Below, piece by piece: positions 1,393 to 62,791 of a stretch of 64,000 nucleotides of DNA. The notes under the pieces were generated by a model. It searched no databases, was not told the origin of the DNA, and worked only from the letters and a program-made list of their open reading frames with translations. Numbering within the stretch: position 1 is the stretch's first letter; the number at the start of each line of letters is the position of its first letter. The DNA is from Simplicispira hankyongi (GTDB lineage Bacteria > Pseudomonadota > Gammaproteobacteria > Burkholderiales > Burkholderiaceae_C), in contig NZ_QXJC01000003.1 in NCBI RefSeq assembly GCF_003570885.1, forward strand, positions 496,001-560,000, written 5' to 3'. The position numbers and the translations under genes were made by a program.

Positions 1393-2268
1393 ATGACGTC
1401 ATCCGCCCCATCCGTCGATCTGTACTGCGTGCTCGGCAACCCCATTGCCCACAGCCGCTCGCCCTGGATTCACACCCGCTTTGCCGAACTGACGGGTGAG
1501 CGCCTGCGCTACGAGGCGCGCCTGGTGCCGCTGGACGGCTTTGCGCCCGCCATTGCCCGGCTCGCCGCCGAGGGCGCGCGCGGCTGCAACGTCACCGTGC
1601 CCTTCAAGCTCGAAGCCGTGGCCGCCGCCACCCGGTGCAGCGAACGCGTGCAACTGGCGGGCGCGGCCAACACGCTGAGTTTCGTGAACGGCGCCGTCCT
1701 GGCCGACAACACCGACGGCCTGGGCCTGGTGGCCGACATTGCCCGCAATGCCGGTTTTGGCATTGCCGGGCGCGACGTGCTGCTGATCGGTGCCGGCGGC
1801 GCCGCGGCCGGGACGCTGGCCCCACTGCTGGCAGCCGGCCCGCGCCGCGTGGTGGTGGCCAACCGCACGCTGGCCCGCGCCGAGGCGCTGGTGCGCGCCC
1901 ACAGACCGCTGGCTTTGCTACACAAAACAGAGCTGCTAGCGCAATCCACACAAGCGCTGGAGCATGATTTTGACCTCATTATCAACGCCACGGCAAGCAG
2001 CCTGGCGGGCGACGTGGTACCGGTGCCGGCGCGGGTGCTGCGCCCCGGCAGCCTGGCCTACGACATGATGTACGGCCCAGCGGCCCAGGGCTTTCTCGAC
2101 TGGGCCACTGCCGGCGGGGCGCAGGCGCGCGACGGCCTGGGCATGCTGGTGGAGCAGGCAGCAGAAGCCTTTGCCCTCTGGCGCGGCGTGCGCCCGCCCA
2201 GCGCGCAGGTGCTGCAGGAGATGCGCACTGCAAGCGCCGCCGCAGCGACCGGCGCAGCGCGGCCATGA
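1393..2268 (+). CDS. aroE: Shikimate dehydrogenase AroE
   Basis: This 291-residue enzyme reduces 3-dehydroshikimate to shikimate with NADPH in aromatic amino-acid synthesis. The shikimate-binding HSRSP motif is at residues 20-24. The catalytic Lys is K72 in the NVTVPFK stretch, with the paired Asp D108 in DNTDG. The Rossmann GAGGAA loop follows at about 132-137. The start was chosen at 1393 because an AGGAAG Shine-Dalgarno lies 8 bp upstream; an in-frame ATG at 1357 has no such site. Residues about 178-194 are encoded by a diverged copy of the dispersed palindromic repeat (1924-1973), in the strand-helix region before the INAT motif, and the reading frame is intact. The stop overlaps the mtgA start (ATGA). 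Confidence 0.95.
   Translation: MTSSAPSVDLYCVLGNPIAHSRSPWIHTRFAELTGERLRYEARLVPLDGFAPAIARLAAEGARGCNVTVPFKLEAVAAATRCSERVQLAGAANTLSFVNGAVLADNTDGLGLVADIARNAGFGIAGRDVLLIGAGGAAAGTLAPLLAAGPRRVVVANRTLARAEALVRAHRPLALLHKTELLAQSTQALEHDFDLIINATASSLAGDVVPVPARVLRPGSLAYDMMYGPAAQGFLDWATAGGAQARDGLGMLVEQAAEAFALWRGVRPPSAQVLQEMRTASAAAATGAARP
1924..1973 (+). repeat. Dispersed palindromic repeat, copy 1 (inside aroE, diverged)
   Basis: The arms GCTGCTAGCGC and AAGCGCTGGAG, with flanks AAAACA and ATTTTGA, match the family consensus, but the loop is changed. It is translated in a different frame from the other coding copies. Confidence 0.65.
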
Positions 2269-2996
2269 AAGCCGTTTGGCGCTGGGTGGCACTGGTGGCC
2301 ATGGCGTTGGTCGCGCTGCAGCTCTTCTTCGTGCTGCGCATTGCCGCTATGGCCGTGGTGGACCCGCAATCGACCAGTTTTCAGCGCAGCGAGATCTGGG
2401 CCCAACTGCACGGTGGCGGCTTGCACTGGCACCAGCAATGGCTGCCGTACGCGCAGATTGCCGAGCCCCTGAAACGCGCGGTGATCGCCTCGGAGGACGA
2501 CGGGTTCGTCAACCACGACGGCGTCGACTGGAACGCCATCGAAAAGGCCTGGGAGCGCAACAACCGCGCCGAGCAGCAGGCCGCCAAGGCCAGCGCCCGC
2601 GCGCCGGACCGCCCGGTGCGAGCCGCCAAGATCCGCGGCGGCTCCACCATCACGCAGCAACTGGCCAAGAACCTGCTGCTCTCGGGCGAGCGCACGCTGC
2701 TGCGCAAGGGCCAGGAATTCGTGTTGACCATGCTGCTGGAGCGACTGCTCTCCAAGCAGCGCATCCTGGAGATGTACCTCAACAGCGTGGAATGGGGCGA
2801 CGGCGTCTTTGGCGCCGAGGCAGCGGCGCAGCGCTACTACAGGAAAAGCGCCAGCCGCCTGAACAGCCAGGAAGCCGCGCGCCTGGCCGTCATGCTGCCG
2901 GCGCCCAAGCGCTTCGAGAAAAACCCCGGCTCGGCCTACATCGCCGGGCGCACGCGCACCATCCTGGGACGCATGGCCAGCGCGGAGCTTCCTTAG
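2265..2996 (+). CDS. mtgA: Monofunctional peptidoglycan transglycosylase MtgA
   Basis: This 243-residue inner-membrane enzyme polymerises lipid II into glycan strands on the periplasmic side. An N-terminal membrane anchor lies at about residues 7-30. The GT51 domain follows, with motif 1 SEDDGFVNHDG (catalytic Glu E77), the RGGSTITQQLAKN motif, the RKGQEF...LLSKQRILEMYLN stretch and the VEWGDGVFGAEAAAQRYY motif. There is no transpeptidase domain and the length is normal for MtgA. It overlaps aroE by 4 bp and ends 2 bp from the convergent FAH gene. The aroE-mtgA pair is common in this family. Confidence 0.95.
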   Translation: MKAVWRWVALVAMALVALQLFFVLRIAAMAVVDPQSTSFQRSEIWAQLHGGGLHWHQQWLPYAQIAEPLKRAVIASEDDGFVNHDGVDWNAIEKAWERNNRAEQQAAKASARAPDRPVRAAKIRGGSTITQQLAKNLLLSGERTLLRKGQEFVLTMLLERLLSKQRILEMYLNSVEWGDGVFGAEAAAQRYYRKSASRLNSQEAARLAVMLPAPKRFEKNPGSAYIAGRTRTILGRMASAELP

Positions 2997-2998
2997 GG

Positions 2999-3841
2999 TT
3001 ACATCAGTTGCTGGCGCTGCCGGCCCAGGCCTTCGATCTCCAGCTCCACCACGTCGCCCGCCTGCAGGTACGGGAAACGCCCCGACATCGCCACGCCCTC
3101 GGGCGTGCCGGTGAGGATGACGTCGCCGGGCTCCAGCACCAGGTACTGCGAGAGGTCGTGCACGATCTGGTCCACGTTGAAAATCATGTCGCGGGTCGAG
3201 GAATCCTGGCGCGGCTCGCCATTCACCCAGGAGCGGATGCGCAGACCGTCTGGCGAGATTTCATCGGACGTGACCAGCATGGGGCCGAGGGGGCAGAAGC
3301 CGGGCAGCGACTTGCCTTTGCCCCACTGCGAGCCGCTGCGCTCGAGCTGAAACATCCGCTCAGAGAGGTCGTTGGCGACGCAATAGCCGGCAATGTGCGC
3401 CCGGGCGGCCGCCACCGAGGGCAGGTAGCTGGCGCGCTGGCCGATGACCACTGCCAGCTCCACCTCCCAATCGATGCGCGTGGCGCCGCGCGGCACGGCC
3501 ACCGCGTCGTTCGGGCCGGCCAGGGTGTTGGGGTGCTTGAAGAACAGCACTGGCTGCTGCGGCGCCGGCATGCCGGACTCCGCCGCGTGCGCCGCGTAGT
3601 TGAGCCCGATACACAGCAGCGCCTGCGGCCGCGCCACCGGCGCGCCCACGCGCAGGGCCTGGGCGTCGTGCACCTGGGGAAGCTCGCCGCGCTGCAGCGC
3701 CTGTGCAACGCGCTCTGCACCTTGCGCACTCCAGAACGCGCCGTCGATATCCGCCGTCACGGCACGCAGGTCGAAATACTGCCCCTGCCACAGGGCCACG
3801 GGGATTTCCTGGCCCATGGGGCCAAGGCGGAGAAATTGCAT
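2999..3841 (-). CDS. Fumarylacetoacetate hydrolase (FAH) family protein
   Basis: This 280-residue enzyme belongs to the family of Mg2+/Mn2+-dependent C-C bond hydrolases and isomerases that act on 2,4-diketo acids in aromatic compound breakdown. Visible family motifs are GLNYAAHAAES at about 78-88, the metal-ligand region DWEVELAVVIG, and NDLSERMFQ. The C-terminal stretch LEPGDVILTGTPEGVAM closes the fold. The exact substrate cannot be read from sequence; ureidoglycolate lyase-like or acylpyruvase activity are both possible. It lies downstream of the broken SRPBCC gene on the same strand with an 84-bp gap. Confidence 0.88.
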   Translation of the reverse strand: MQFLRLGPMGQEIPVALWQGQYFDLRAVTADIDGAFWSAQGAERVAQALQRGELPQVHDAQALRVGAPVARPQALLCIGLNYAAHAAESGMPAPQQPVLFFKHPNTLAGPNDAVAVPRGATRIDWEVELAVVIGQRASYLPSVAAARAHIAGYCVANDLSERMFQLERSGSQWGKGKSLPGFCPLGPMLVTSDEISPDGLRIRSWVNGEPRQDSSTRDMIFNVDQIVHDLSQYLVLEPGDVILTGTPEGVAMSGRFPYLQAGDVVELEIEGLGRQRQQLM

Positions 3842-3925
3842 GGTCTCTTTCTTATGTCAGCAGGAAAAATAGGAAGCACCCAAAAGGCCAAGGGGCCCAA
3901 AGGGGCTAAAGACTTGGGCCCGCGC

Positions 3926-4634
3926 TCAACCGGTGATCTGCGGCTCCACCAGCAGCGCCAGCTGCACCAGCGATTCCTGCCAACCCAGCAGGCATTGGTC
4001 CACCGGGATCACGGCCGGCAGCCCCTCTTGCAGCACATTGAGTTCCGTGCCGCAGCCCACGGCGCGCAATTGCACGGTGGTCTGCATGTCGCCAGGCAAA
4101 TTCGGATCATCAAACCGGTCGGTGTAACGGATGCGCTCGCCAGGCACCAGTTCCAGATAGGTGCCGCCAAAGCTGTGCTTCTCGCCCCTGCCGAAGTTAG
4201 GGCCTGTTAACACTATGCAAGGGGTCGCGAAGGTCATCAGAGCCTGCCCATCAAGGCGCGCGACGCAGTGCGTGCGTCCGCACGCTCAAGGAGCGCAACG
4301 CCGAGGGACGGGCTCTGGTGACCTTCCCTTCGGGTTGCCTCGCAAAGGGGCCGTCTGCAGCGTTGCCCGCGCTTGCAAGGCACCAGCCTTGCTGTGCACG
4401 TGTGCCTTGCATACAGCCCCTTTGCGGGGCAACGCGATCCCCTTGCATAGTGTTAACAGGCCCTAATGCCATGCGGTAGTGGCCACCCACGCGGGCGTCC
4501 ATGTGCTCCACCGTGCAAGTGAAACCATGCGGCGGAAGCCATTTGGCCATGGCGGCTGGGTCGAGAAACGCGCGGTAAACGCGCTCGGGGCTGGCGCGCA
4601 GCACGCGCTGCAGGCGGACGGTGCCGGTCTCCAT
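3926..4634 (-). pseudogene. SRPBCC/AHSA1-type protein gene, disrupted by an inverted-repeat element
   Basis: The two halves of one gene are separated by a 264-bp element at 4200-4463. The N-terminal half (from ATG at 4634, with a GAGGAG ribosome site just upstream) reads through RVLRASPERVYRAFLDP and ends at VGGHYRMA. The C-terminal half resumes at NFGRGEKHSFGGTYLELVP and ends LLGWQESLVQLALLVEP. Joined, they give a complete Aha1/START-like lipid-cavity protein of the size typical for this family, whose cellular role is not established. Removing the element with a 2-bp TA duplication does not restore the frame: about 4 bases of the expected gene are missing at the junction. The gene is therefore probably dead. 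Translation of the first half would run on into the element. Confidence 0.88.
4200..4463. mobile_element. 264-bp MITE-like element with 25-30 bp terminal inverted repeats
   Basis: Both ends read GGGCCTGTTAACACTATGCA followed by AGGGG, a perfect 25-bp inverted repeat extended by TCGCG after a 1-base indel. TA dinucleotides flank both ends (4198-4199 and 4464-4465) and may be the target duplication. A second, inner inverted repeat CGCAAAGGGGC is at 4341-4351 and 4416-4426. There is no transposase gene inside, so it would need a helper element elsewhere. It interrupts the SRPBCC gene. Confidence 0.85.
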
Positions 4635-4748
4635 GTCAGGCTCCTCAAGAATCGGATGGCTTCATTTTGCAGGGACGCAGGCCGCGCTGCAATCGTCCCC
4701 GTATCATGGCCGGCGCACGCCCACCGCGTTTCCCATGCACCAAAATTT

Positions 4749-4809
4749 TTGGTCAAATCGACCTGTAGCGCTTATCCCATAAGCGCAAATAGCTCACTAT
4801 TCAATAGCA
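4749..4809 (-). repeat. Dispersed palindromic repeat, copy 2 (abuts ruvC start)
   Basis: The core TAGCGCTTATCCCATAAGCGC is flanked by AGCTCACTATTCAATAG, in reverse orientation. It ends one or two bases before the ruvC ATG and takes up the whole upstream region where a ribosome site would be expected. Confidence 0.85.
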
Positions 4810-4810
4810 A

Positions 4811-13026: not shown

Positions 13027-15303
13027 ATGTCCAGCCCCGCTCAGTACATTCCGCGCCATTGGCATCACACTATTGTTTCAATAGCTGCTTGCGCTTTATT
13101 GATAAGCGCTGGAGGCCAAATTCATGCCCAAACTGCTGCGACACCCAACCCGCAAAGCGTGCGCCCAGGCGAGCCGGTGACGCTGAACTTCGCCAACGCC
13201 GACATCGAAGCCGTGGCGCGCACCATGGCCACCATCACCGGGCGCAACGTGGTGGTGGACCCGCGCGTCAAGGGCCAGCTCAATCTGGCGACCGAGCGTG
13301 CGGTCACGCCGGCAGCGGCTTTCGAGCAGTTCCTGGCGGCGCTGCGCTTGCAGGGCTACACAGTGGTCGAAGCGGGCGGACTCTACAAGGTGGTGCCCGA
13401 GGCGGAAGGCAAACTCCAGGGCAGCAGCGTGCGCGTGTGGCAGGGCGGCGCGCCAGCCGCGGCAGGGGGCGGGCAGATCGTCACGCAGATCTTCAAGCTC
13501 AATTTCGAGAACGCCGCCAACCTGGTGCCGGTGCTGCGCCCGCTCATCAGCCCGAACAACACCATCAACGTCAACCCCGGCAACAACTCGCTGGTGATCA
13601 CCGATTACGCCGACAACCTGCAGCGGCTCGCCCGCATCGTCGCCGCGATGGACGTCTCCAACGCCAGCGACGTGGAAGTGATTCCGCTGAAGAACGCGAT
13701 CGCCTCCGACCTCGCACCCTTGGTGGCGCGGCTGATCGAGGGGGGAAGCGCTTCCTCCACCGGGGTGACGCCGGGCGCCGCGCCGGGCCAGACCGACAGC
13801 ACGTTCAAAACCACGCTGCTGGCCGATCCCAGCAGCAACTCGCTGATCCTGCGCGCCGCCAACCCGGCGCGCCTGGCCCAGGTGCGCGCGCTGGTGCAAA
13901 AGCTCGACCAGGCGCCTGCACCGGGCAGCAGCGCAGCCAGCGGCAACATTCACGTGGTGTATCTGAAGAATGCCGACGCCACCAAATTGGCCGCCACGCT
14001 GCGCGCCGCCATGGCGGCGGGCGGAGGTTCCGGTTCCAGTAGCAGCAGCAGCCCTGGACCTGCGGCAAGCAGCACCAGCGGCCTGAACAGCGCCACGGCG
14101 GGCACCAATACCGCCTCGGCCAGCAGTACGGGCATGGGGAGCAGCAGTGGCGGCGGCCTGAGCACCGGGGGCGGCAATCTGAGCGGCGCCAGCAGCGCGG
14201 CGCCGTCGACCGGCGGGCAGATCCAGGCCGATCCGGCCACCAACTCGCTCATCATCACGGCACCCGAGCCGCAATACCGGCAACTGCGCGCCGTGATCGA
14301 CCAACTCGACGGCCGGCGAGCGCAAGTGCTGGTGGAGAGCCTGATCGTGGAAGTCACGGCCAGCAAGCTGGCCGAGTTCGGCATCCAGTGGCAGGGCATC
14401 CTGGGCAAGCAGGGCGACGGAACCATCGGTGTGATCGGCACCAACTCGGCCCAGTCGGGTGCCAACATCGTGAACATCACGGCAGCGCTGGCCAGCGGCT
14501 CCACGACCACCGCGGCCTCCGCCCTGGGCACGCTGGGCAAGGGCCTGAACCTGGCGCTGGCGCCGCGCATCAACGGCCAGTACTACCTGGGGGCGCTGGC
14601 CAATTTCCTGCAAAACAGTGGCGACGCCAACGTGCTCTCCACCCCCAACCTGATGACGCTGGACAACGAAGAGGCCCGCATCATCATCGGCAACAACGTG
14701 CCCTTCGTCACCGGCTCGTATGCCGCCAGCGCAGGAACCAGCACGGTGAACCCCTTCACCACCGTCGAGCGCAAGGACGTGGGCCTGGTGCTGCGCGTGC
14801 GCCCGCAGATCAGCGAGAACGGCACGGTCAAAATGTCCATCTACCAGGAAGTGTCCAAGATCGACAGCAGCACGCTAACGAATGCCAACGGACCGACCAC
14901 CAGCAAGCGGTCCATCGAATCAAACGTGGTGGTGGACGACGGCAACATCATCGTCATTGGCGGCCTCCTGGAGGACTCCTACAGCTCGGGTGAAGACAAG
15001 GTGCCGTTGTTTGGCGACATCCCGGTCGTCGGCAACCTGTTTCGCAGCGAAAACCGCTCGCGCAACAAGACCAATCTGATGGTCTTCCTGCGGCCCACGG
15101 TGATTCGTGACAGCGCCGCCAGCAATGCACTGACGGTGGACCGCTACGAGGCGATTCGCGCGCTGCAGCAACAGGCCCAGCCCACGCCGAGCACGCTGCT
15201 GCACCCGGTGTCGGGCGCGCCGGTCCTGCCGCCGCTGCCCGCACGGCCCGCTGCGACGCAGACCAACATCGTCACACAGCCCGATTTCCCCGCAGGCAAC
15301 TGA
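13027..15303 (+). CDS. gspD: Type II secretion secretin GspD
   Basis: This 758-residue protein forms the outer-membrane secretin channel. A signal peptide of about 35 residues ends in IHAQ. N0-N3 domains follow to about residue 430, with NxI/NxL repeat motifs such as NTINVNPGNNSLVITDYADN. The N3 region holds a long Ser/Gly-rich insert at about 335-395. The secretin core (about 430-700) has the VPFVTGSYA and ISENGTVKMSIYQEVSKI motifs and the VVVDDGNIIVIGGL gate region. The hydrophobic core of the signal peptide (residues about 15-33) is encoded by a copy of the dispersed palindromic repeat. I see no clear ribosome site before the ATG, so the exact start is less sure than the identity. The TGATG overlap couples it to gspE. 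Confidence 0.96.
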   Translation: MSSPAQYIPRHWHHTIVSIAACALLISAGGQIHAQTAATPNPQSVRPGEPVTLNFANADIEAVARTMATITGRNVVVDPRVKGQLNLATERAVTPAAAFEQFLAALRLQGYTVVEAGGLYKVVPEAEGKLQGSSVRVWQGGAPAAAGGGQIVTQIFKLNFENAANLVPVLRPLISPNNTINVNPGNNSLVITDYADNLQRLARIVAAMDVSNASDVEVIPLKNAIASDLAPLVARLIEGGSASSTGVTPGAAPGQTDSTFKTTLLADPSSNSLILRAANPARLAQVRALVQKLDQAPAPGSSAASGNIHVVYLKNADATKLAATLRAAMAAGGGSGSSSSSSPGPAASSTSGLNSATAGTNTASASSTGMGSSSGGGLSTGGGNLSGASSAAPSTGGQIQADPATNSLIITAPEPQYRQLRAVIDQLDGRRAQVLVESLIVEVTASKLAEFGIQWQGILGKQGDGTIGVIGTNSAQSGANIVNITAALASGSTTTAASALGTLGKGLNLALAPRINGQYYLGALANFLQNSGDANVLSTPNLMTLDNEEARIIIGNNVPFVTGSYAASAGTSTVNPFTTVERKDVGLVLRVRPQISENGTVKMSIYQEVSKIDSSTLTNANGPTTSKRSIESNVVVDDGNIIVIGGLLEDSYSSGEDKVPLFGDIPVVGNLFRSENRSRNKTNLMVFLRPTVIRDSAASNALTVDRYEAIRALQQQAQPTPSTLLHPVSGAPVLPPLPARPAATQTNIVTQPDFPAGN
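13070..13124 (+). repeat. Dispersed palindromic repeat, copy 3 (encodes gspD signal peptide core)
   Basis: The sequence from CTATTGTTTCAATAGCTGCT through GCGCTTTATTGATAAGCGCT to GGAGGCCAAATT keeps both arms and both flanks of the family. It reads in frame as a hydrophobic alanine/leucine/isoleucine-rich stretch inside the secretin signal peptide. Confidence 0.88.
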
Positions 15304-20084: not shown

Positions 20085-21107
20085 ATGACGGCTTCCATTC
20101 CTACCGCGCTCTCCCTGCTCGACCTCGTGGCCGTGCGCGAGGGCGGCAGTGTGCGCGATGCGCTCGCCATAGCGCTGGCGACGGCCCGGCATGCCGAGTC
20201 TCTGGGTTTCAAGCGCTACTGGCTGGCCGAACACCACAACATGGACGGCATTGCCAGCTCGGCAACGGCGGTACTGGTGGGCCACATCGCCGCTGGCACC
20301 GAGCGCATGCGCGTCGGCTCGGGCGGTGTCATGCTGCCCAACCACGCACCGTTGGTGGTGGCCGAGGCCTTTGGCACGCTGGCCGAACTGTTCCCCGGCC
20401 GCATCGACCTGGGGCTGGGGCGCGCGCCGGGGACCGACCCGCTCACCATGCGCGCGCTGCGCCGCGACCGGCCCGAGACGCAGGAGGACTTCCCGCGCGA
20501 CGTGGCCGAACTGCAGCGCCTGCTGGCGCCCCCCGAGCCAGGCCAGCGCCTGGTGGCCACGCCCGGAGCGGGCACCAACGTTCCCATCTGGCTGCTCGGC
20601 TCCAGTCTGTTTTCCGCCCAGCTCGCGGCCGAGCGCGGCCTGCCTTACGCATTTGCCTCGCACTTCGCACCGCGTTTGCTGCTGCAGGCGATAGACCTGT
20701 ATCGGCGCCTGTACAAACCCTCGGCACACTGGCCCAAGCCCTATGTGGTGATTGGCGTACCGCTCATTGCCGCACCGACCGACGAGGAGGCGCAATTCCT
20801 CGCCAGCAGCACCTACCAGCGCGTGCTGGGCATCCTCAAGGGCGAGCGGCGCAAGCTGGCGCCACCGGTAGCTGGGCTGGTGGAACACCTGTCGCCCCAG
20901 GAACGTGCCGCCATTGGTGAATTCCTCGCGGCAGCCGTCATCGGCGGGCCCGACTCCGTGCGCTCCGGGATGGAGGCGCTGCTCAAGGCGACACAGGCCG
21001 ACGAACTGATGCTGGTGTGCGACGTGTTCGATCCGGCCTTGCGCCTGCGCTCGCTCGACATTGCCGCCGCCGCCCGGGCACAGCTACAAGCCACGGGCAA
21101 TTTTTAA
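20085..21107 (+). CDS. Luciferase-like flavin-dependent monooxygenase
   Basis: This 340-residue TIM-barrel protein belongs to the bacterial luciferase superfamily (the MsnO8-like group). It is expected to use reduced FMN and oxygen. Conserved stretches are [38 protein letters not shown] and [37 protein letters not shown] follows them. The substrate is unknown. The stop codon lies at the edge of a dispersed palindromic repeat, which fills the 63-bp gap to the convergent SDR gene. Confidence 0.9.
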
Positions 21108-21170
21108 CTATTATTTCAATAGCTGCATGCGCTTTACTAGCAAGCGCTAGCGGCCATTTTTGCTCTAAAT
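21108..21170 (+). repeat. Dispersed palindromic repeat, copy 4 (convergent gap)
   Basis: It fills the whole gap between the convergent monooxygenase and SDR genes. It carries CTATTATTTCAATAGCTGC, the two AGCGCT-type arms (first arm GCGCTTTACTAG diverged, second CAAGCGCTAGCGGCC) and a TTTTTGCTCTAAATTT end. Confidence 0.85.
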
Positions 21171-21920
21171 TTAGCGCGCCAGATAGCCGCCGTCCACCGG
21201 GTAGTACGAACCCGTCACAAACGAGGCCTTGCTGCTCGCGAGCCAGAGCACCAGTTCGGCCACTTCCTCAGCACGGCCCAGCCGGCCGATGGGGTGGGCG
21301 GCGACCAGCATGCCGTTGACGGCCTGGTTCTCTTCCAGCGCGCTGATCATGGGCGTGTGGATGAAGCCCGGCCCGACGGCGTTGATGCGCACGCCCTGCG
21401 CGCTGTATTCCAGCGCTGCCGCCTGGGTCAGCCCTACGACTCCGTGCTTGGCTGCGGTGTACGCCGGTGCTCCGGCAAAACCCACGGCCCCCAGAATGGA
21501 CGCCATGTTGACGATGGCGCCGCCGCCATTCTTGAGCATGGCCGGCAACTGGTACTTCATGCCATAGAACACACCCGAGAGGTTGATGCCAATCACCTGC
21601 GCCCAGCCGTCCAGCGGGTAGTCGGCCGTGGGCGCCTGCGGGCCGCCAATGCCGGCGTTGTTGCAGGCAATGTCGAGACGCCCGAACTTCTCCACAGCGC
21701 GCTGCACCAGCGCTTCGCAATCCTGCGGCTGGCTCACATCAGCGGTCACAAACAGCGCCTCGCCGCCAAGCCCACGCACCTGGGCCACGGTTTGCTCGCC
21801 GCCGTCACGGTTGGTGTCGGAGACCACCACGCGCGCACCCTCGCGCGCCCAGGCCAGGGCAACGGCGCGACCAATGCCCGAGGAACCGCCGGTGATCAAT
21901 GCGACTTTGTCTTTCAACAT
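21171..21920 (-). CDS. SDR-family NAD(P)-dependent oxidoreductase
   Basis: This 249-residue classical short-chain dehydrogenase has the cofactor loop TGGSSGIG at about 12-19 and an acidic residue after beta-2 (VVSDTN), which suggests NAD preference. NNAGIGG, the catalytic Ser in MASILG and the YTAAK Tyr/Lys pair follow. The C-terminal GSYYPVDGGY motif is typical. The start at 21920 has AAGGAG just upstream; the longer frame to 22022 has no support. The substrate is unknown. It faces gspF divergently across 122 bp. Confidence 0.92.
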   Translation of the reverse strand: MLKDKVALITGGSSGIGRAVALAWAREGARVVVSDTNRDGGEQTVAQVRGLGGEALFVTADVSQPQDCEALVQRAVEKFGRLDIACNNAGIGGPQAPTADYPLDGWAQVIGINLSGVFYGMKYQLPAMLKNGGGAIVNMASILGAVGFAGAPAYTAAKHGVVGLTQAAALEYSAQGVRINAVGPGFIHTPMISALEENQAVNGMLVAAHPIGRLGRAEEVAELVLWLASSKASFVTGSYYPVDGGYLAR

Positions 21921-22042: not shown

Positions 22043-23269
22043 ATGCCCGCCTTTGCCTTTGAAGCGCTCGATGCCCAGGGCCAGACGCGCACCGGCATGC
22101 TGGAAGCCGACAACGCCAAGGCCGCCCGCAGCCAGCTGCGGGCGCAGGCGCTGGTTCCGCTCGCGGTCTCGCCCGCGGCGCAATCGGGTGCGGCAGACGG
22201 CTCGCGCACCGCTGGCGGCTGGCTGCAGCGGCCGGTGTTTGGCAGCACGGGGCTGGCCATCTGGACGCGCCAGGTGGCGGGACTGGTCTCCTCCGGGCTC
22301 ACGCTGGAGCGGGCGCTGACCGCCCTTTCCGACGAGGCCGACGACGAGCGCCAGCGCCACCTGGTCGCGGTGCTGCGCGCCGAAGTCAACGCCGGCGCGC
22401 CCTTTGCCCAGGCACTGGCCCAGCACCCGCGCGAGTTTTCCGACATCTACTGCGCCGTAATTGGCGCTGGCGAGCACAGCGGCAGGCTCGGCCTGGTGCT
22501 CGAACGCCTGGCCGACGACCTGGAGGAGCGCCAGGCGCTCAAGGCCAAGCTGGTCGGCGCCGCGCTCTACCCCGCCATCGTCACGCTGGTGGCCATCGCC
22601 ATTGTGATTTTTCTCGTCAGCTACGTCGTACCGCAGGTCGCTGGCGTGTTTGCCGGCTCGCGCCGCGCATTGCCCTTCCTGACGGTGGCCATGCTGGCGG
22701 TGAGCGCTTTCGTGCGCCACTACGGTATCTGGCTGCTGATTGCTATTGTTATTGCAGCTATTAGCGCACGCTACGCTTACGCTAGAGCCGCTTTTCGTTC
22801 AAAATTTGACGCTGCCTTTCTGCGCCTTCCCATCCTTGGCCGCCTGGCACGCGGCTACAACGCAGCGCGCTTTGCCAGCACGCTGGCCATGCTGGCGGGT
22901 GCGGGCGTTCCCATCCTCAAAGCCTTGCAGGCGGCCGCCGAAACCCTGAACAACCGCGCCATGCGTGCCGACGCGCTGGACGCGCTGGTGCAGGTGCGCG
23001 AAGGCGCGCCGCTGGCCTCGGCGCTGGCGCAAAGAAAGCGCTTTCCGAGCCTGCTGTCCATGTTCGCCCGTCTGGGCGAGCAGACCGGGCAACTGCCGCT
23101 CATGCTGCAGCGCGCTGCCGTGCAGCTCAGCACCGAGGTGCAGCGCCGCGCCGTGCAACTGGCAACCGTGCTGGAGCCCCTTCTGATCGTCGTGATGGGA
23201 CTGGTGGTGATGCTGATCGTTCTGGCCGTTCTGCTGCCCATCATTCAGCTCAACCAGTTCGTCAAATAA
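22043..23269 (+). CDS. gspF: Type II secretion inner-membrane protein GspF
   Basis: This 408-residue polytopic platform protein contacts GspE and GspL. It begins MPAFAFEALDAQGQTRTG, the usual GspF start. Two GspF domains follow, each with the typical FARQLATLL-like helix pair: TRQVAGLVSSGLTLERAL at about 75-92 and RFASTLAMLAGAGVPILKAL at about 275-294. Membrane segments lie at about 175-200, 212-245 and 380-402. Residues about 233-256 are encoded by a dispersed repeat copy and include the end of the second membrane region. The gene is separated from gspE by seven unrelated genes, so it must have its own promoter. A 5'-nucleotidase gene follows 10 bp later. Confidence 0.95.
   Translation: MPAFAFEALDAQGQTRTGMLEADNAKAARSQLRAQALVPLAVSPAAQSGAADGSRTAGGWLQRPVFGSTGLAIWTRQVAGLVSSGLTLERALTALSDEADDERQRHLVAVLRAEVNAGAPFAQALAQHPREFSDIYCAVIGAGEHSGRLGLVLERLADDLEERQALKAKLVGAALYPAIVTLVAIAIVIFLVSYVVPQVAGVFAGSRRALPFLTVAMLAVSAFVRHYGIWLLIAIVIAAISARYAYARAAFRSKFDAAFLRLPILGRLARGYNAARFASTLAMLAGAGVPILKALQAAAETLNNRAMRADALDALVQVREGAPLASALAQRKRFPSLLSMFARLGEQTGQLPLMLQRAAVQLSTEVQRRAVQLATVLEPLLIVVMGLVVMLIVLAVLLPIIQLNQFVK
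22740..22810 (+). repeat. Dispersed palindromic repeat, copy 5 (inside gspF, diverged)
   Basis: CTATTGTTATTGCAGCTATTAGCGC, GCTTACGCTAGAGCC and GTTCAAAATTTGA follow the family order with base changes and a 3-base insertion that keeps the frame. It is translated in the same frame as copies 3 and 9. Confidence 0.75.
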
Positions 23270-33039: not shown

Positions 33040-33051
33040 TTGCCCACGGAA

Positions 33052-33114: not shown

Positions 33115-33116
33115 TT

Positions 33117-33764
33117 CTAGGCTTCTGCTGCAATCTGCCGCAGCGCCTGCTCGAACACCTCCACCGGCTGGCCGCCCTGAATCAGGTGACGCTCGTTGAT
33201 GACGATGGCCGGCACGGAGTGGATGCCTTGTTGCAGGTAGAACTGCTCGCGCTCACGCACGTCGGCCGCGTAGCGATCCGATTGCAGCAAGGCGCGTGCC
33301 TCTGCCACGTCCAGCCCCACCTCGCCAGCCAGGCGCACCAGCAATGCCTGGTTGCTCGGGTCTTCTCCGTCGGTGAAATAGGCCTTGAACAGCGCGTTCT
33401 TGAGCGCCTCCTGGTGCCCCTGCAGCTCAGCCCAGTGCAGCAGGCGGTGCGCGTCGAAGGTGTTGTAGATGCGGCCGCGCGCACCAGGAGTGAAGGTGAA
33501 GCCCAGCTCGGCACCGCGTGCAGCAATGGCGGCGCGGGTGGCTTCGCGCTGCGCGTCGGACGCGCCATATTTCTGCTGCAGGTGTTCGCCGATGTCCTGG
33601 CCGTCTGGCCCCATCTGCGGATTGAGTTCAAACGGCTGGAAGTGCAGATCGAGCTGCACCTCACCGGCCAGGCGCTCGGCAGCCTGCTTCAGCGCGCGCA
33701 GGCCGATCACGCACCAGGGGCAGGACACATCAGAAACAAAGTCGACTTTGAGGGTGGTTGGCAT
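33117..33764 (-). CDS. DsbA family oxidoreductase (FrnE-like)
   Basis: This 215-residue thioredoxin-fold protein has the active-site motif SCPWC at about residues 14-18, with the DsbA-type helical insertion (about 60-150) and the cis-Pro loop GIHSVPAIVIN. It has no signal peptide, so it acts in the cytoplasm like FrnE proteins, which are linked to oxidative stress and polyketide or glutathione-related chemistry. The start at 33764 was chosen because GGAG lies about 6 bases upstream. The substrate is unknown. Confidence 0.92.
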   Translation of the reverse strand: MPTTLKVDFVSDVSCPWCVIGLRALKQAAERLAGEVQLDLHFQPFELNPQMGPDGQDIGEHLQQKYGASDAQREATRAAIAARGAELGFTFTPGARGRIYNTFDAHRLLHWAELQGHQEALKNALFKAYFTDGEDPSNQALLVRLAGEVGLDVAEARALLQSDRYAADVREREQFYLQQGIHSVPAIVINERHLIQGGQPVEVFEQALRQIAAEA

Positions 33765-34373: not shown

Positions 34374-34404
34374 TCTGCTCGCGCGCTGGGCGCATCTACC
34401 TTCA

Positions 34405-34463
34405 TACTCTCTAATCAATAGCGCAATGCGCATACACAACAAGCGCTACAGGCCGATCTGATT
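34405..34463 (+). repeat. Dispersed palindromic repeat, copy 7 (diverged)
   Basis: The order CTCTAATCAATAGCGCAATGCGCATAC, AAGCGCTACAGGCC follows the family, but the first arm has decayed. It lies between a terminator and the start of the SPOR-domain gene. Confidence 0.65.
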
Positions 34464-34510
34464 GTTAAAACAGGCATTCACAGAAGCGGCACCCCATGCC
34501 AGAATGCCGC

Positions 34511-50776: not shown

Positions 50777-51388
50777 ATGATCAAACTGGTGGTGGGCCTG
50801 GGCAACCCAGGCCCGGAATACGAGGCCACGCGGCACAACGCGGGCTTCTGGTGGGTGGACGCGCTGGCGCGCGAACTCAAGGTGCAACTGGTGCCCGAAC
50901 GCAGCTACTGGGGTCTGGCCGCGCGTGCCACAGTCGATGGCCAGCCGGTATGGCTGCTGGAGCCACAGACCTTCATGAACCTCTCGGGCAAGGCGGTTGC
51001 GGCACTGGCGCGTTTTTTCAAGATTGCGCCGAACGAGGTGCTGGTCGTGCACGACGAACTGGACTTGCAGCCCGGCCAGGCCAAGCTCAAGCGCGGCGGC
51101 GGGCATGCGGGCCACAACGGGCTGCGCGACATCCACGCGCAGCTCGGCACGCCCGACTACTGGCGGCTGCGCATCGGCATTGGGCACCCGGGTGATCGTG
51201 CCGAGGTGGCCAACTGGGTGCTCAAGCGCCCGCCACAGGAGCAGCGCACGCTGATCGAAGACAGCATCGCCCACTCGCTCAAGGCCTGGCCTGCATTGCT
51301 GGCGGCCGACATGGACAAGGCGGCGCAGCAGATCCACACCACCAAGCCGCCCAGGCCCAAACCACCCCGGCCTGTCGAGTCCGCTTGA
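50777..51388 (+). CDS. pth: Peptidyl-tRNA hydrolase
   Basis: This 203-residue enzyme recycles tRNA from prematurely released peptidyl-tRNA. It has [20 protein letters not shown] with catalytic His H20, FMNLSGKAV, the HDELDL Asp, and [17 protein letters not shown]. The Pro/Lys-rich C-terminal tail ([14 protein letters not shown]) is an addition to the core. The in-frame region upstream of 50777 was not used because [15 protein letters not shown] is the standard N-terminus. Confidence 0.96.
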
Positions 51389-51450
51389 TACTATTATTCT
51401 TATAGCTTCTAGCGCTTACTGCATAAGTGCTAGAGGTCTAAAACACCTAA
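51389..51450 (+). repeat. Dispersed palindromic repeat, copy 8 (convergent gap)
   Basis: CTATTATTCTTATAGCTTCTAGCGCTTACTGCATAAGTGCTAGAGGTCTAAAA starts at the pth stop codon and ends just before the ferredoxin stop. It fills the gap between convergent genes. Confidence 0.9.
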
Positions 51451-51453
51451 CTT

Positions 51454-51759
<306 letters not shown>

Positions 51760-54874: not shown

Positions 54875-55785
54875 ACACGATGACTCCTGAAACAATAGCT
54901 GCTAGCGCTTATGCAGTAAGCGCTAGAGGCCATTTTGAGCACGAAAATGGCGGCGTGCCGCTGCTCCAGGTACGCAACCTGGCGCACCACTACGCCCTGC
55001 CGCGTACGCAGCTGTGGGGGCCGCGTCCACAGGTCACGGCGCTGCAAGATATCAACCTCACGCTGCATGCGGGGCAGAGCCTGGGCATCGTCGGCGCCTC
55101 GGGCTCGGGCAAGTCCACGCTGGCGCGGCTGGTGATGGCGCTCGACATGCCCAGCAGCGGCCGCGTGCTGTGGGCCGGCCAGAACCCCCAACAAATGGGC
55201 GCGGGCGAACTGCGCCGCGCACGCCGCCATATCCAGATGGTGTTCCAGGACCCTTTCGGCGCACTGGACCCACGCCAGCGCATTGCCCGCACCGTCGCCG
55301 AACCCCTGGCTGCGCAAGGCGACACGACCCGCACCGAACAGCGCCGCCGCGCCGCCGAGGTGCTGGAGCAAGTGGGACTGCGCGCCGAAGCGCTGGACCA
55401 GTACCCGCACGAATTTTCCGGCGGCCAGCGCCAGCGCATCGCCATTGCGCGCGCGCTCATCACGCGGCCGCGCGTCATCGTGGCCGACGAACCGGTCAGC
55501 GCGCTGGACGTATCCGTGCAGGCCCAGGTGCTCAACCTGATGCAGCAGCTGGCGCGCGATTTCGGCGTGACCTATCTGCTCATCAGCCACGACCTGGCGG
55601 TGGTGAACCACCTGTGCGACGAGGTGGCTGTGCTGCACCAGGGCCGCATCGTCGAGCAGGGGCCGCCCGCGCAGCTCTTTCAATCGCCCACACACCCGTA
55701 CACCCGCGCTCTGGTGGCAGCGATGCCGCTGGCGCCAACTGGTGTACAAAAGCCCTTTTTTCCGCCCTCGGAGAACGCCCCATGA
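54871..55785 (+). CDS. Peptide ABC transporter ATPase (DppF-like) with repeat-encoded N-terminus
   Basis: This 304-residue ATPase pairs with the DppD-like protein. It has Walker A GASGSGKSTLA, Q-loop VFQDPFGALDPRQ, signature [15 protein letters not shown], Walker B VIVADEPVSALD and the H-loop [10 protein letters not shown]. Residues about 6-27 are encoded by a dispersed palindromic repeat, giving an alanine-rich N-terminal stretch ahead of the true domain start at VPLLQVRNLAHHY. The start at 54871 overlaps the upstream stop; no other in-frame start between the repeat and the domain was found that would clearly replace it. Confidence 0.93.
   Translation: MNTMTPETIAASAYAVSARGHFEHENGGVPLLQVRNLAHHYALPRTQLWGPRPQVTALQDINLTLHAGQSLGIVGASGSGKSTLARLVMALDMPSSGRVLWAGQNPQQMGAGELRRARRHIQMVFQDPFGALDPRQRIARTVAEPLAAQGDTTRTEQRRRAAEVLEQVGLRAEALDQYPHEFSGGQRQRIAIARALITRPRVIVADEPVSALDVSVQAQVLNLMQQLARDFGVTYLLISHDLAVVNHLCDEVAVLHQGRIVEQGPPAQLFQSPTHPYTRALVAAMPLAPTGVQKPFFPPSENAP
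54887..54949 (+). repeat. Dispersed palindromic repeat, copy 9 (encodes DppF-like N-terminus)
   Basis: AAACAATAGCTGCTAGCGCTTATGCAGTAAGCGCTAGAGGCCATTTTGAGC is close to the family consensus and is read in frame at the start of the ATPase gene. Confidence 0.92.
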
Positions 55786-57269: not shown

Positions 57270-58669
57270 CCGACGCTCTGCACAATCTCGGTGCGCGCAC
57301 CTTGCAGCAGGGCTACGCCTCTGGCGCGTTTTCGCCAGTCGACGTAGCCAAGGCCGTGCTCGCCCGCATCGAGCGCTGGGAGCCGCACCTGCACGCCACC
57401 TGGCTGTTGCGGCCCGAGCTGGCGCTGGTCCAGGCACGCGAGAGCGAAGCGCGCTGGCAGCGCGGCGCCCCGCTCTCGCCGCTGGACGGCGTGCCCATGA
57501 CGCTCAAGGACAACCTCGCCACGCAGGGCGATCCGACGCCGCTGGGCACCGCCGCCGCGCCGCTGTTCCCGGCACTGGCGGACGCGCCGCCCGCTGCGCG
57601 CCTGCGCGAAGCCGGCGCGGTGCTGGTGTCCAAGACCACCATGCCCGACTACGGCATGCTCTCCTCCGGCCTGTCGAGCTTTCACGCGCTCGCCCGCAAC
57701 CCCTGGGACCTCAGCAAAGGCCCGGGCGGCTCCAGCGCGGGTGCGGGCGCCGCTGCGGCCGCCGGCTACGGGCCCTTGCATGTGGGCACCGACATTGGCG
57801 GTTCGCTGCGCCTGCCGGCTTCGTGGTGCGGCATCTTCTCGCTCAAACCCAGCCTGGGCCGCATTCCCATCGACCCGCCCTACACCGGCCGCGCCGCCGG
57901 CCCCATGACGCGCAGCGTGGAAGACGCGGCGCTGATGATGGCGGTGCTGTCACAGCCCGACGCGCGCGACAGCATGCAACTCCCGCCGCAGGACATTGCC
58001 TGGCACGACTTCGAGCGCAGCCCCGAGCATTTGCGCGGCCTGCGCATCGGTTTGTTGCTGGACGCCGGCTGCGGCCTGCCCGTGGACCCGCAGGTGCGCG
58101 CAGCCATCACGCAGGCGGCCCGGCTGTTCGAGAGCGCCGGCGCCACCGTCACGCCCATGCAGCCGTTCCTCGCGCCCGAGATGCTCGCCGGCATGGACCA
58201 GTTCTGGCGCATGCGCTCGCACCTGGACATGGCTGCCCTGCCGCCCGAGCGCAAGGCGCGCGTGCTGCCCTTCATTCAGGCCTGGGCCGACAGCGCCGCG
58301 GGCCTCTCGGGCACCCAGGTGTTCCACGCCGCCCAGCAGTTCCACGCGACACGCGTGGCCACCGTGGCGGCCTGCAGCGCATTCGACTATGTGCTCTCGC
58401 CCGTCGCGCCGATCACCGCCTTTGCCGCCGAGCTGGCCAGCCCGACCGACGACCCGCTGCGCGCGCTGGAGCACATTGCGTTCACCGTGCCGTTCAACAT
58501 GTCGGAGCAGCCGGCAGCCTCCATCAACTGCGGCTACAGCGACGAGGGCTTGCCCATTGGCCTGCAGATTGCCGGCGCCCGCTTTGACGACCTGGGCGTG
58601 CTGCGGGTGGCGCGCGCCTTCGAGCAGTTGCGCGGGCCGCAGCGCCCCTGGCCCGAGCCACCAGGGTAG
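57266..58669 (+). CDS. Amidase (amidase signature family)
   Basis: This 467-residue enzyme splits amide bonds with a Ser-cisSer-Lys triad. The Lys is in MTLKDN at about 82-87, the cis-Ser in GPGGSSAGAGAAAAAGYGPL, and the nucleophile Ser in GTDIGGSLRLPASWCGIFSLKP (about 174-195). The C-terminal VPFNMSEQPAASINCGYSDEGLPIGLQI motif is conserved. It is fused by a 4-bp overlap to the transporter operon, so it probably processes the imported solute in the cytoplasm; no signal peptide is seen. Confidence 0.94.
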   Translation: MTDALHNLGARTLQQGYASGAFSPVDVAKAVLARIERWEPHLHATWLLRPELALVQARESEARWQRGAPLSPLDGVPMTLKDNLATQGDPTPLGTAAAPLFPALADAPPAARLREAGAVLVSKTTMPDYGMLSSGLSSFHALARNPWDLSKGPGGSSAGAGAAAAAGYGPLHVGTDIGGSLRLPASWCGIFSLKPSLGRIPIDPPYTGRAAGPMTRSVEDAALMMAVLSQPDARDSMQLPPQDIAWHDFERSPEHLRGLRIGLLLDAGCGLPVDPQVRAAITQAARLFESAGATVTPMQPFLAPEMLAGMDQFWRMRSHLDMAALPPERKARVLPFIQAWADSAAGLSGTQVFHAAQQFHATRVATVAACSAFDYVLSPVAPITAFAAELASPTDDPLRALEHIAFTVPFNMSEQPAASINCGYSDEGLPIGLQIAGARFDDLGVLRVARAFEQLRGPQRPWPEPPG

Positions 58670-58736
58670 AAAATATTGATCAAAACAGCCTCTAGCGCTT
58701 ATCCCATAAGCGCTAGTAGCTATCAACTAAATAGCA
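58670..58736 (-). repeat. Dispersed palindromic repeat, copy 10 (convergent gap)
   Basis: GCCTCTAGCGCTTATCCCATAAGCGCTAGTAGCTATCAACTAAATAG is the most regular copy, with perfect 10-bp arms and a CCC loop. It fills the whole gap between the convergent amidase and LysE genes. Confidence 0.95.
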
Positions 58737-59402
58737 TCAGGTCGCAGCGCGGCTGATCGTCGCCAGGCGCACGGCCAGACCCAGAAACACCACGCCGGCC
58801 GCCCGGTTGAGCCAGCGTTGCGCGCGCGCCGAGCGCAGCAGCAACGTGCCAAAGGTGCCCGAGAACACGGCAATGGCGCCAAACACCAGCAGCGTGGCCA
58901 GCATGAAGACGATGCCCAGCAGCATGATCTGCGGCGCCACGCTGCCCAGCGCCGGGTTGGCAAACTGGGGCAGGAAGGCAAGGAAAAAGATCACCACCTT
59001 GGGGTTGGTCAGGTTCATCACCATGCCGCGCCCGACCATGCGCCAGGCGCTGGCGGCAGGCCGCTCGGAGGGGCTGGGTGCCCTGTCGGGGTCCGCCCCG
59101 TCCTGCGATGCCTGTGCGCGCGGGCGCAGCGACTGCCAGGCCAGCCATCCCAGATACGCCGCACCCAGGTACTTGAGCACCGTGAACGCCGTGGCCGAAG
59201 CGGCAAACAGCGCCGCCAGCCCCAGCGCCACGGCCGCCGTGTGCACCACCAGCCCCACGCACAGCCCCACCACCACCGCCATGCCGGCGCGCCAGCCGCG
59301 CTGGGCCGATTGCACCAACACAAACAGGTTGTCGGGGCCGGGCGTGATGCCCAGCAGCAGGGAGACACCAAAAAAGGCAAGCAGAGTGTCGAGGGTGGGC
59401 AT
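58737..59402 (-). CDS. LysE/RhtB family exporter
   Basis: This 221-residue inner-membrane protein has six predicted helices and the family pattern LLGITPGPDNLFVLVQSAQRG near the N-terminus, GLAALFAASATAFTVLKYLGAAYLGWLAW in the middle, and NLTNPKVVIFFLAFLPQF. Members export amino acids or related compounds by proton exchange. A polar loop (about 92-118, rich in D, P and S) is longer than usual. The stop lies at the edge of the dispersed repeat. Confidence 0.93.
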   Translation of the reverse strand: MPTLDTLLAFFGVSLLLGITPGPDNLFVLVQSAQRGWRAGMAVVVGLCVGLVVHTAAVALGLAALFAASATAFTVLKYLGAAYLGWLAWQSLRPRAQASQDGADPDRAPSPSERPAASAWRMVGRGMVMNLTNPKVVIFFLAFLPQFANPALGSVAPQIMLLGIVFMLATLLVFGAIAVFSGTFGTLLLRSARAQRWLNRAAGVVFLGLAVRLATISRAAT

Positions 59403-60643: not shown

Positions 60644-60711
60644 GCTGAACCTCGAAAAAAAAGTCTGCCGATTGTGCGCAGCGCCCATGAACGCTGTGCC
60701 GTGCCGAAGTT

Positions 60712-61530: not shown

Positions 61531-61538
61531 CAGTTGCT

Positions 61539-61961: not shown

Positions 61962-61968
61962 GGTCGGT

Positions 61969-62691
61969 TCACTTTCCAGGGATGAGCGAGAGGAATTCGC
62001 GGCGCAGCGAGGCGTCTTTCAGGAACACGCCGCGCATCACCGAGTTGAGCATCTTGCTGTCCATCTCTTTCACGCCGCGCCAGGACATGCAGAAGTGGCT
62101 GGCCTCCATGACGATGGCCAGGCCATCGGGCTGGGTTTTTTCCATGATCAGATCGGCCAGCTGCACCACGGCTTCCTCCTGGATTTGCGGGCGGCCCATG
62201 ACCCAGTCGACCAGGCGCGCGTACTTCGACAAGCCGATCACGTTGGTGTGCTCGTTGGGCATGACGCCGATCCAGATCTTGCCGATCACCGGGCACAGGT
62301 GGTGGCTGCAGGCGCTGCGCACCGTGAGCGGGCCGACGATCATCAGCTCATTCAAGTGCTCGGCATTGGGGAATTCGGTGATCGAGGGCGACTCGATGTA
62401 GCGGCCCTTGAAGACTTCGCTCAAGTACATCTTGGCCACCCGGCGCGCGGTGGCCTGCGTGTTGTGGTCACCGTGGGTGTCGATCACCATGCTGTCGAGC
62501 ACGCCCTGCATCTTGACCTCGACCTCGTCGAGCAAGGCTTCCAGCTCGCCGGGCTCGATGAACTGGGCGATGTTGTCGTTGGCGTTGAAGCGCTTGCGGG
62601 CCGCGACAATGCGCTCGCGAATCTTCACGGAGACGGGAACGCCCTCGTCGTGGGCTTCGGGGCGGGTCTCAAAGGGTTCGGAGCGCTGCAT
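61969..62691 (-). CDS. folE: GTP cyclohydrolase I (FolE)
   Basis: This 240-residue enzyme makes 7,8-dihydroneopterin triphosphate from GTP, the first step to tetrahydrofolate. It has the zinc-site motif CSHHLCPVIGKIWIGVMP at about 131-148, SKYARLVDWVMGRPQIQEE and a C-terminal MEASHFCMSWRGVKEMDS with the third zinc Cys. The acidic N-terminal tail (about 1-30) is longer than in Escherichia coli. It is transcribed with the BLUF gene. A dispersed repeat lies between it and the upstream cardiolipin synthase. Confidence 0.96.
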   Translation of the reverse strand: MQRSEPFETRPEAHDEGVPVSVKIRERIVAARKRFNANDNIAQFIEPGELEALLDEVEVKMQGVLDSMVIDTHGDHNTQATARRVAKMYLSEVFKGRYIESPSITEFPNAEHLNELMIVGPLTVRSACSHHLCPVIGKIWIGVMPNEHTNVIGLSKYARLVDWVMGRPQIQEEAVVQLADLIMEKTQPDGLAIVMEASHFCMSWRGVKEMDSKMLNSVMRGVFLKDASLRREFLSLIPGK

Positions 62692-62730
62692 GGGCGAATG
62701 GTAACAGCCGCGCGGAGCCTTTGCTTATGA

Positions 62731-62791
62731 AGGTTTTTTGGCCTCTAGCGCTTATTCAGCATGCGCTTCCAGCTATTTAAAGCATAGCATC
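62731..62791 (-). repeat. Dispersed palindromic repeat, copy 11
   Basis: GGCCTCTAGCGCTTATTCAGCATGCGCTTCCAGCTATTTAAAGCATAG has one intact arm and one altered arm. It lies in the 113-bp gap upstream of folE and downstream of the cardiolipin synthase gene, both read leftwards. Confidence 0.85.

Follow-up and report, generated by a model that had tools for sequence, protein, structure and literature searches.

A 64,000-nucleotide stretch of the Simplicispira hankyongi genome (contig NZ_QXJC01000003.1, positions 496,001 to 560,000; hereafter the window) carries eleven copies of a short palindromic repeat, some of them inside protein-coding genes. What is this repeat, how old are its sites, and how do its dispersed copies stay alike? 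We find a real and old repeat family, apparently undescribed, whose general kind is known but whose mode of evolution is unusual. For ten of the eleven window copies, other species or genera carry a counterpart at the corresponding site, and one of the two hairpins of the element differs by lineage at these shared sites, from which we infer concerted evolution of dispersed sites.

Anatomy, abundance and placement of the repeat

The eleven window copies align without gaps over 71 columns. The element is about 70 bp long and consists of a first hairpin, a second hairpin and then an AT-rich tail, with a consensus of roughly TTGCTATTnnnTTnATAGCTGCTAGCGCTTATnnnATAAGCGCTAGAGGCCAATTTTnCTTnAAAATTT. 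Hairpin 1 is GCTAT-N7-ATAGC, and hairpin 2 in the window genome is TAGCGCTTAT-N-ATAAGCGCTA, with 10-bp arms. The original prediction, made from the letters of the window, had described a palindrome with AGCGCT arms, which stands, and a loop of 3–5 bases, which we correct to about 5 nt; the flanking 'AGCTATTGAAATA' that it reported itself belongs to the other hairpin. The element has a GC content of 39% (range 0.32–0.52, 42 copies).

A covariance model built from the eleven window copies refound all of them in the window with scores of 59.7–77.5 bits, and its six weaker window matches (25.9 bits or less) were the same copies read on the opposite strand. To avoid circularity, we trained a position weight matrix (PWM) on 42 copies from a separate 400 kb of the same genome, outside the window. 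This matrix gave the window copies 40.9–92.2 bits, each within a few bases of its predicted position, and its only further window matches above 10 bits were opposite-strand readings of three known copies. In a reversed-sequence control (400 kb, both strands) one position scored above 0 bits and none above 5 bits, and the comparison rules out a chance origin of the copies. Since the matrix was trained outside the window, its scores also mark the copies in aroE and gspF as genuine. The copies are as follows.

Copy 1: 1915–1985, plus strand; inside aroE (shikimate dehydrogenase), sense frame 1 (..LLHKTELLAQSTQALEHD..); PWM 53.8 bits
Copy 2: 4740–4810, minus strand; ends at the ruvC start codon (4811); PWM 85.5 bits
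Copy 3: 13067–13137, plus strand; 5′ end of gspD, frame 3, inferred signal-peptide core (..TIVSIAACALLISAGGQIHA..); PWM 63.0 bits
Copy 4: 21105–21175, plus strand; convergent junction of a luciferase-like gene and an SDR gene; PWM 80.9 bits
Copy 5: 22740–22810, plus strand; inside gspF (T2SSF), sense frame 3; PWM 40.9 bits
Copy 6: 33047–33117, minus strand; convergent junction beside a DSBA-like gene; PWM 92.2 bits
Copy 7: 34404–34474, plus strand; intergenic, upstream of a SPOR-domain gene; PWM 52.2 bits
Copy 8: 51388–51458, plus strand; begins at the stop codon of pth (peptidyl-tRNA hydrolase); PWM 68.4 bits
Copy 9: 54881–54951, plus strand; between two ABC-ATPase genes, forming in frame the N-terminus of the second (inferred start); PWM 69.4 bits
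Copy 10: 58667–58737, minus strand; convergent junction after an amidase gene, perfect hairpin 2; PWM 91.7 bits
Copy 11: 62720–62790, minus strand; after the stop of a PLD-domain gene and before the start of the gene that follows; PWM 69.3 bits

Four of these copies lie inside genes, as had been proposed. Genes were called with a simple gene caller, by which only the aroE and gspF copies fell inside called coding sequences (CDS); the putative start codons that place the other two in gspD and the ABC-ATPase gene were derived from the long open reading frame (ORF) and from relatives. The gene around copy 1 matched Pfam Shikimate_dh_N, among other families, and copy 4 overlaps the stop codons of both its neighbours (distances to the stops −2 and −4). 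The hairpin-2 arms of the gspF copy have diverged, so that hairpin 2 contributes only 2.0 of its 40.9 bits. When the repeat's open frame and three in-gene stretches were scanned against Pfam, no family emerged that covers the repeat peptide itself.

The high density that the original prediction had noted was borne out beyond the window. In the 3.71-Mb genome the pattern AGCGCTTN7AAGCGCTA, with up to two mismatches, matched 292 and 293 times on the two strands (a near-palindrome can be counted on both) against 6 and 6 times for the reversed pattern, well over chance. The 400-kb sample held 64 copies above 10 bits, which extrapolates to about 590 in the genome; genome-wide scoring covered 150 of 2,018 candidates. 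Together with the pattern counts in family genomes given below, these numbers support the proposed orientable, genome-wide Comamonadaceae repeat with in-gene copies.

When sample and window were pooled (75 copies), 14 copies lay inside called CDS and 61 did not, the latter at tandem (41), convergent (16) and divergent (4) junctions. With a 25-bit threshold and a slightly different assignment of copies, convergent junctions were enriched (15 of 53 junctions with an element versus 59 of 391 of all junctions; Fisher P = 0.007), and tandem and divergent junctions showed no significant difference (P = 0.34 and 0.14). Median gaps with and without an element were 115 and 29 nt at tandem junctions and 98 and 33 nt at convergent ones, that is, 86 and 65 nt wider, about one element length. 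We detected no orientation bias at tandem junctions (23 sense versus 18 antisense, P = 0.53) and no strand bias (35 of 75). The 14 copies in CDS were in sense frame 3 (six), sense frame 1 (three) or antisense (five), and never in sense frame 2.

Old sites and a hairpin that changes by lineage

The in-gene aroE site is the firm case of site sharing. Among 55 relatives whose locus holds aroE, 25 carried the element above 5 bits at the same codons and in the same frame, and 18 of these 25 were equal in length here to copy-free relatives. The other seven (L035, L038, L049, L050, L059, L060 and L071) are longer here and retain a larger part of the repeat tail, as if the element had been inserted and later trimmed. 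At the ruvC site, where the strand of the window copy was scanned, 26 of 80 relatives had a copy above 5 bits, whose end lay no more than 5 bases from the start codon in 23 and 10–34 bases from it in three; scanning of both strands with the model from the window copies gave 22 matches, all on that strand. Judged by RuvC, the named genome closest to this one is a Giesbergeria metagenome-assembled genome (99%). The gspD site is common to G200, G206, G202 and G204, where frame 3 again reads as a signal-peptide core (for example, AIQIIASSALLASATGPIHA), and Rhodoferax 338R has a copy at the gspD site of a gene 61% identical to gspD (..AIVSIAACALCTCGTAIFSINA..).

For copies 4, 6 and 8–11, counterparts were judged from the DNA of relatives, with PWM scores as support. 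That of copy 8, after pth, was found in seven of seven relatives (17.4–90.2 bits), with 0.2–0.4 kb of other DNA between in G205 and G210. Copy 4 has counterparts in G200 and G206 and, in a diverged form with hairpin 1 GCTCC/GGAGC, also in G202; G210 has none. Copy 9 has them in G200, G204, G212 and G201, and none in G203 and G210 (G205 was not placed); and copy 11 in G200, G204 and G203, with four relatives not placed. Copy 6 has a counterpart in G201, and G206 and G204 hold other, longer DNA between the anchors (3,449 and 1,500 bp). Copy 10 has one in G212 and, beside the right-hand neighbour with 1.5–2 kb of other DNA on the left, in G201 and G204, three relatives not being placed; at this site in the closest relative, G200 (L301), the element is split by an insertion of about 150 bp with inverted ends. 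Copy 7 could be placed in none of the 13 relative sequences tried. In G200, all eight scored copies with an alignable flank were shared, and five others lay in DNA without a window counterpart. The shared sites argue against recent mobility, which had been offered as a possibility. They include sites in distant genera, an outcome that the original prediction had regarded as speaking against a mobile family; the sites do recur there, but they indicate age and not a false family, because copy number varies between and within genera and the sequence is lineage-specific.

We surveyed 200 genomes of the family as defined by GTDB, own genome included. The hairpin-2 pattern had at least 40 forward matches in 21 of them, each well above its own control, and varied strongly between congeners (473 versus 24, 199 versus 12). 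The hairpin-1 pattern with one mismatch had at least one match in 63 genomes and at least five forward matches in 39; a single match does not exceed chance, because the reversed control reaches 2, its maximum in any genome. Some hairpin-1-rich genomes were poor in AGCGCT arms (120/131 versus 7/4 in G035, 137/121 versus 29/25 in G039 and 38/29 versus 4/5 in G099), because hairpin 2 is lineage-specific. Among 50 named genomes (two mismatches; controls 2–15), 23 had 30–262 forward matches and 27 had at most 8. Bearers include Acidovorax, Giesbergeria, Simplicispira, Extensimonas, Comamonas, Xylophilus, Rhodoferax and two Curvibacter; non-bearers include Variovorax, Ramlibacter, Paracidovorax, Roseateles and Lampropedia, and also one A. 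soli strain (S00198), one Comamonas, one Giesbergeria and two Curvibacter.

Hairpin 1 is nearly constant and hairpin 2 differs by lineage, with arms AGCGCTT..AAGCGCT in the window genome, GCCGGCG..CGCCGGC in Xylophilus Leaf220, GcGcA..TGCGC in Rhodoferax 338R and GAGCAGTATTTAC..GGGC, with poor pairing, in G035. We built hairpin-2 profiles from four genomes (41, 37, 51 and 18 copies), leaving out the scored copy and its near-duplicates. Copies at shared sites scored best under the profile of their own genome in 10 of 11 cases (ruvC 4 of 4, aroE 2 of 2, gspD 2 of 2, gspF 2 of 3); the ruvC copy of Xylophilus, for example, reached 26.4 bits under the Xylophilus profile and −18.7 under that of the window genome. 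The aroE pair is the firmest test, because codons establish orthology: the window genome's copy scored 21.6 under its own profile against 8.8 under that of CG2_30_57 and 17.1 under that of Rhodoferax, and the CG2_30_57 copy scored 23.3 under its own against 8.7 under the window genome's. Across all copies, 32 of 41, 35 of 37, 45 of 51 and 14 of 18 were best under the profile of their own genome.

Codon use in aroE points to a constraint at the DNA level. In 28 element-bearing genes, chosen by eye and including two below the 5-bit count (L064 and L069), GC content at third codon positions was 0.46 in the element and 0.85 elsewhere, compared with 0.84 and 0.87 in 28 genes without it. Scorable codons with a conserved majority ending in A or T made up 4 of 8 in the element and 3 of 182 elsewhere.

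What keeps dispersed copies alike

The explanation that we favour, with the balance tipping only modestly towards it, is that the repeat is an old, Comamonadaceae-wide, non-autonomous interspersed family of the ERIC (enterobacterial repetitive intergenic consensus) or REP (repetitive extragenic palindromic) kind, whose copies are fixed and homogenised. The copies would have come long ago as insertions and would now be mostly fixed. Either gene-conversion-like exchange among dispersed copies may keep them alike, or new copies may repeatedly overwrite old ones. The copies show no preferred orientation with respect to transcription, so the retained feature would lie at the DNA level, as a hairpin, a cruciform or a protein-bound palindrome. 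In-gene copies would persist where the frame is open (sense frames 1 and 3) and be trimmed back towards the original length, and some may now serve as protein sequence, as in the putative GspD signal peptide.

Several observations weigh against this explanation. At the gspF site only 6 of 27 distinct relatives had a match above 10 bits (the aligned segment is of the same length in all), and the window genome's own gspF copy, the one exception among the eleven, fits the Rhodoferax profile better. The ruvC copy of CG2_30_57 has a small margin (25.1 versus 22.6). We saw no target-site duplication or clean empty site at the inspected sites, where the flanks are too diverged, and independent insertion into the same small ruvC gap is possible for single lineages. 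Mean synonymous identity in aroE is barely higher in the element (0.73, 8 codons) than elsewhere (0.64, 182 codons). Covariation at the ruvC site is modest (0.235 versus 0.177 shuffled; reached in 0 of 500 shuffles), pairs changed on both sides are not above shuffles there (295 of 500 reach the value), RNAalifold found no consensus structure for the ruvC copies, and covariation within the genome is weak (33 of 500 shuffles reach it). Copies of 70 bp that differ by 20–30% are poor substrates for ordinary recombination, and the mechanism of homogenisation is itself putative.

An unlikely alternative is that the two adjacent inverted repeats would serve throughout the genome as binding sites for a nucleoid or regulatory protein, the specificity of which would have shifted from lineage to lineage. 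The shared sites with their inverted repeats, a near-constant hairpin 1 and a lineage-specific hairpin 2, would fit such a protein, as would the presence in some genera of genomes at background. However, hundreds of sites would need to change one by one, and many copies are imperfect.

We consider it slightly less likely still that the repeat is a candidate DNA uptake signal of Comamonadaceae competence, where DNA with the preferred version would be taken up and recombined more, a molecular drive leading to lineage dialects. Lineage-specific versions at shared sites, in-gene sites included, and the lack of strand bias are what such a signal would predict. Known DNA uptake sequences (DUS) and uptake signal sequences (USS) are shorter and far more numerous than the sites of the repeat, only 14 of 75 copies lie in CDS, and spacing is not clearly more even than random (coefficient of variation 0.80; P = 0.04 versus uniform placement and 0.12 versus gene junctions, and 0.25 and 0.34 at 40 bits). 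In favour of a signal, natural competence is reported in the consulted part of PMC4212676 for Acidovorax temperans, A. facilis and Verminephrobacter eiseniae, sequence-specific uptake is suggested there for V. eiseniae, and no tested Acidovorax detectably took up the DNA of another Acidovorax species; that part names no uptake signal for these bacteria.

Active mobility of a REP or MITE (miniature inverted-repeat transposable element) family, driven by a resident Y1 transposase of the REP-associated tyrosine transposase (RAYT) type, we regard as very improbable. It would account for the differences in copy number between congeners, and copies do occur at RAYT genes: in L198 (43.9 bits) and L199 (66.5 bits) one overlaps the 3′ end of the RAYT gene, and in L201 (65.0 bits) and L205 (46.6 bits) one lies just upstream of it, with strong adjoining or overlapping copies at four of five re-inspected loci, which had been picked for their scores. 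In a further set of genomes, which overlaps in part with the named ones, 17 of 18 bearers searched had a Y1_Tnp match. Among the named genomes, however, Y1_Tnp was present in 21 of 23 that bear the element and in 25 of 27 that lack it, and both Xylophilus and G141 bear elements with no Y1_Tnp match at E 0.001 (draft incompleteness is possible). The window genome has one Y1_Tnp match, and that RAYT locus (3.3 kb) contains no match to the repeat model, but a GGGGTCAGA motif instead. Y1_Tnp presence thus does not track the repeat, and the sites are old. As repeat density is high and shared sites are old, we read the RAYT-adjoining copies as ordinary sites; there may have been a past link between repeat and RAYT.

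The RAYT-type gene itself is usually present once per genome and, in many relatives with or without the repeat, has flank motifs of the GGGGTCAGA/TCTGACCCC type and similar downstream neighbours. Examples of such loci are the following.

RAYT-type loci: L031, L194, L195, L197, L198, L200, L202–L205 and L207

An RNA-level element (a terminator, mRNA stabiliser or small RNA) is the least probable explanation of all: convergent junctions are enriched and several copies have perfect hairpins, but sense and antisense copies are balanced (23:18), the consensus has no T-run directly after the hairpin, Rfam at gathering scores found two tRNAs only in the window, and copies occur in frame within genes. 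Phage cargo was rejected as far as one copy goes, which had no match in 50,697 phage records, and one long repeat pattern had no exact match in viral contigs.

Known repeats, integron cassettes and wider bearing

ERIC sequences, or intergenic repeat units, of enterobacteria are short imperfect palindromes without a transposase that lie at gene junctions, at sites shared between related genera. The present element resembles them in being palindromic, in lying mostly outside CDS (61 of 75 copies) and in occupying sites common to several genera. By description, it differs in sequence, in length (about 70 versus about 127 bp), in having two separate hairpins, of which hairpin 2 is lineage-specific, and in its in-frame copies in aroE, gspD and gspF. 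By this analogy the element may work as ERIC does, set apart by a hairpin 2 version that is common to the sites of a genome.

The Beta-proteobacterial repeat element (BRE; Hot et al. 2011) occurs in Comamonadaceae too, with some copies in coding sequences; in the part of PMC3110155 consulted, Bordetella BREs have a mean GC content of 69.0% (63.7–78.9) and a length of 75–91 bp, are tandem at some loci and number at most 29 copies per genome. The present element, with 39% GC, about 70 bp and hundreds of copies, is set apart from BRE by that description. A second, GC-rich palindromic family, CCCCCTGAG..CTTCCCCC..GGGGGACG..GCGGCCCTTGC, occurs in the own-genome sample L112–L131, at offsets near 225074 and 281945 on the plus strand and with further matches on the reverse strand, and in L305 and L307. 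This second family is a candidate for the published BRE.

GTAG REPs, as described in the consulted part of PMC3733652, are palindromic, have high copy number and a GTAG tag, often accompany RAYTs and are in some cases found in genes. The present repeat is likewise palindromic and abundant, with some copies in genes and a RAYT in the genome, but its consensus has no GTAG at either end, it does not track the presence of a RAYT and its sites recur in several genera. The main text of that paper contains none of the terms Acidovorax, Delftia, Polaromonas, Comamona and Burkholderiales. The same source gives a CGTC tag for Rickettsia palindromic elements. The present consensus contains no CGTC, its left (A/T)TGCTAT and right AAAATTT are not inverted repeats of each other, as MITE ends would be, and its copies in this genome are mostly intergenic. 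Rickettsia elements, which are of another sequence and taxon, have in-frame copies inside protein genes, and the resemblance to them that the original prediction drew is upheld by the in-frame copies found here. In the open-access literature searched we recognised no name for the repeat, as the original prediction had also reported, and three 14-letter strings of it did not occur in the papers searched.

The repeat also appears in mobile DNA. Plasmid searches reached class 1 integron cassettes annotated DUF1010, which we take to be those named gcuD and gcuF. Four cassettes were examined, each found because its sequence resembles the repeat or another of the four, and all of them carry the repeat antisense to the annotated frame (50.2, 37.8, 37.4 and 47.3 bits).

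L348:2488–2557, antisense; repeat in DUF1010 cassette
L348:1292–1362, antisense; repeat in DUF1010 cassette
L350:990–1060, antisense; repeat in DUF1010 cassette
L352:1337–1407, antisense; repeat in DUF1010 cassette

Two of the cassette proteins match Pfam PF06231 (DUF1010) over its full length (E 4.9e-33 and 1.9e-31). Antisense translations of chromosomal copies match positions 1–25 only, in four of the six tried (22 were available) and with E-values of 0.0017–0.0092, below Pfam's cut-off; a seventh, of 26 residues, gave no PF06231 match. The start of DUF1010 therefore reads as the repeat: the first 20–25 or so of its 66 positions correspond to the antisense repeat translation (FLASSAY..ASSY), and the remaining positions of this annotated protein family are unmatched by repeat translations and may correspond to an attC site. 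On these translations, it seems that the repeat has been mistaken for part of a protein in integron cassettes. Of 72,556 plasmid records, 1,788 were matched in a search with one cassette; for 1,725 of these the identity was 80–90%, and the one representative of the 80–90% group that was checked carries the repeat. The repeat in these cassettes suggests Comamonadaceae-like DNA as a source of them.

Two further features of the window stand apart from the repeat: a perfect 28-bp inverted repeat with 214 bp between its arms, MITE-like, at 4197–4466, and two adjacent long ORFs (27713–29941 and 29957–32524) with repeated stretches 71–82% identical, apparently a tandem gene duplication.

For annotation, the finding bears on Pfam DUF1010, whose start reads as an antisense repeat in class 1 integron cassettes. 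For the biology of the family, hundreds of structured, shared sites per genome that change together by lineage, even in a housekeeping gene, imply that some mechanism of copying or drive is needed, and we know of no other short bacterial repeat, uptake signals excepted, for which such a mechanism is known. The repeat thereby opens two questions to testing, one being how 70-bp copies scattered over a genome are kept alike and the other what restricts transformation from one Acidovorax species to another. Were the repeat an uptake signal, it would be one of a new kind, a two-hairpin dialect marker of Comamonadaceae natural transformation; uptake preference would drive the concerted change of hundreds of fixed sites, those in genes included, and would account for the lack of transformation between Acidovorax species described in the consulted part of PMC4212676.

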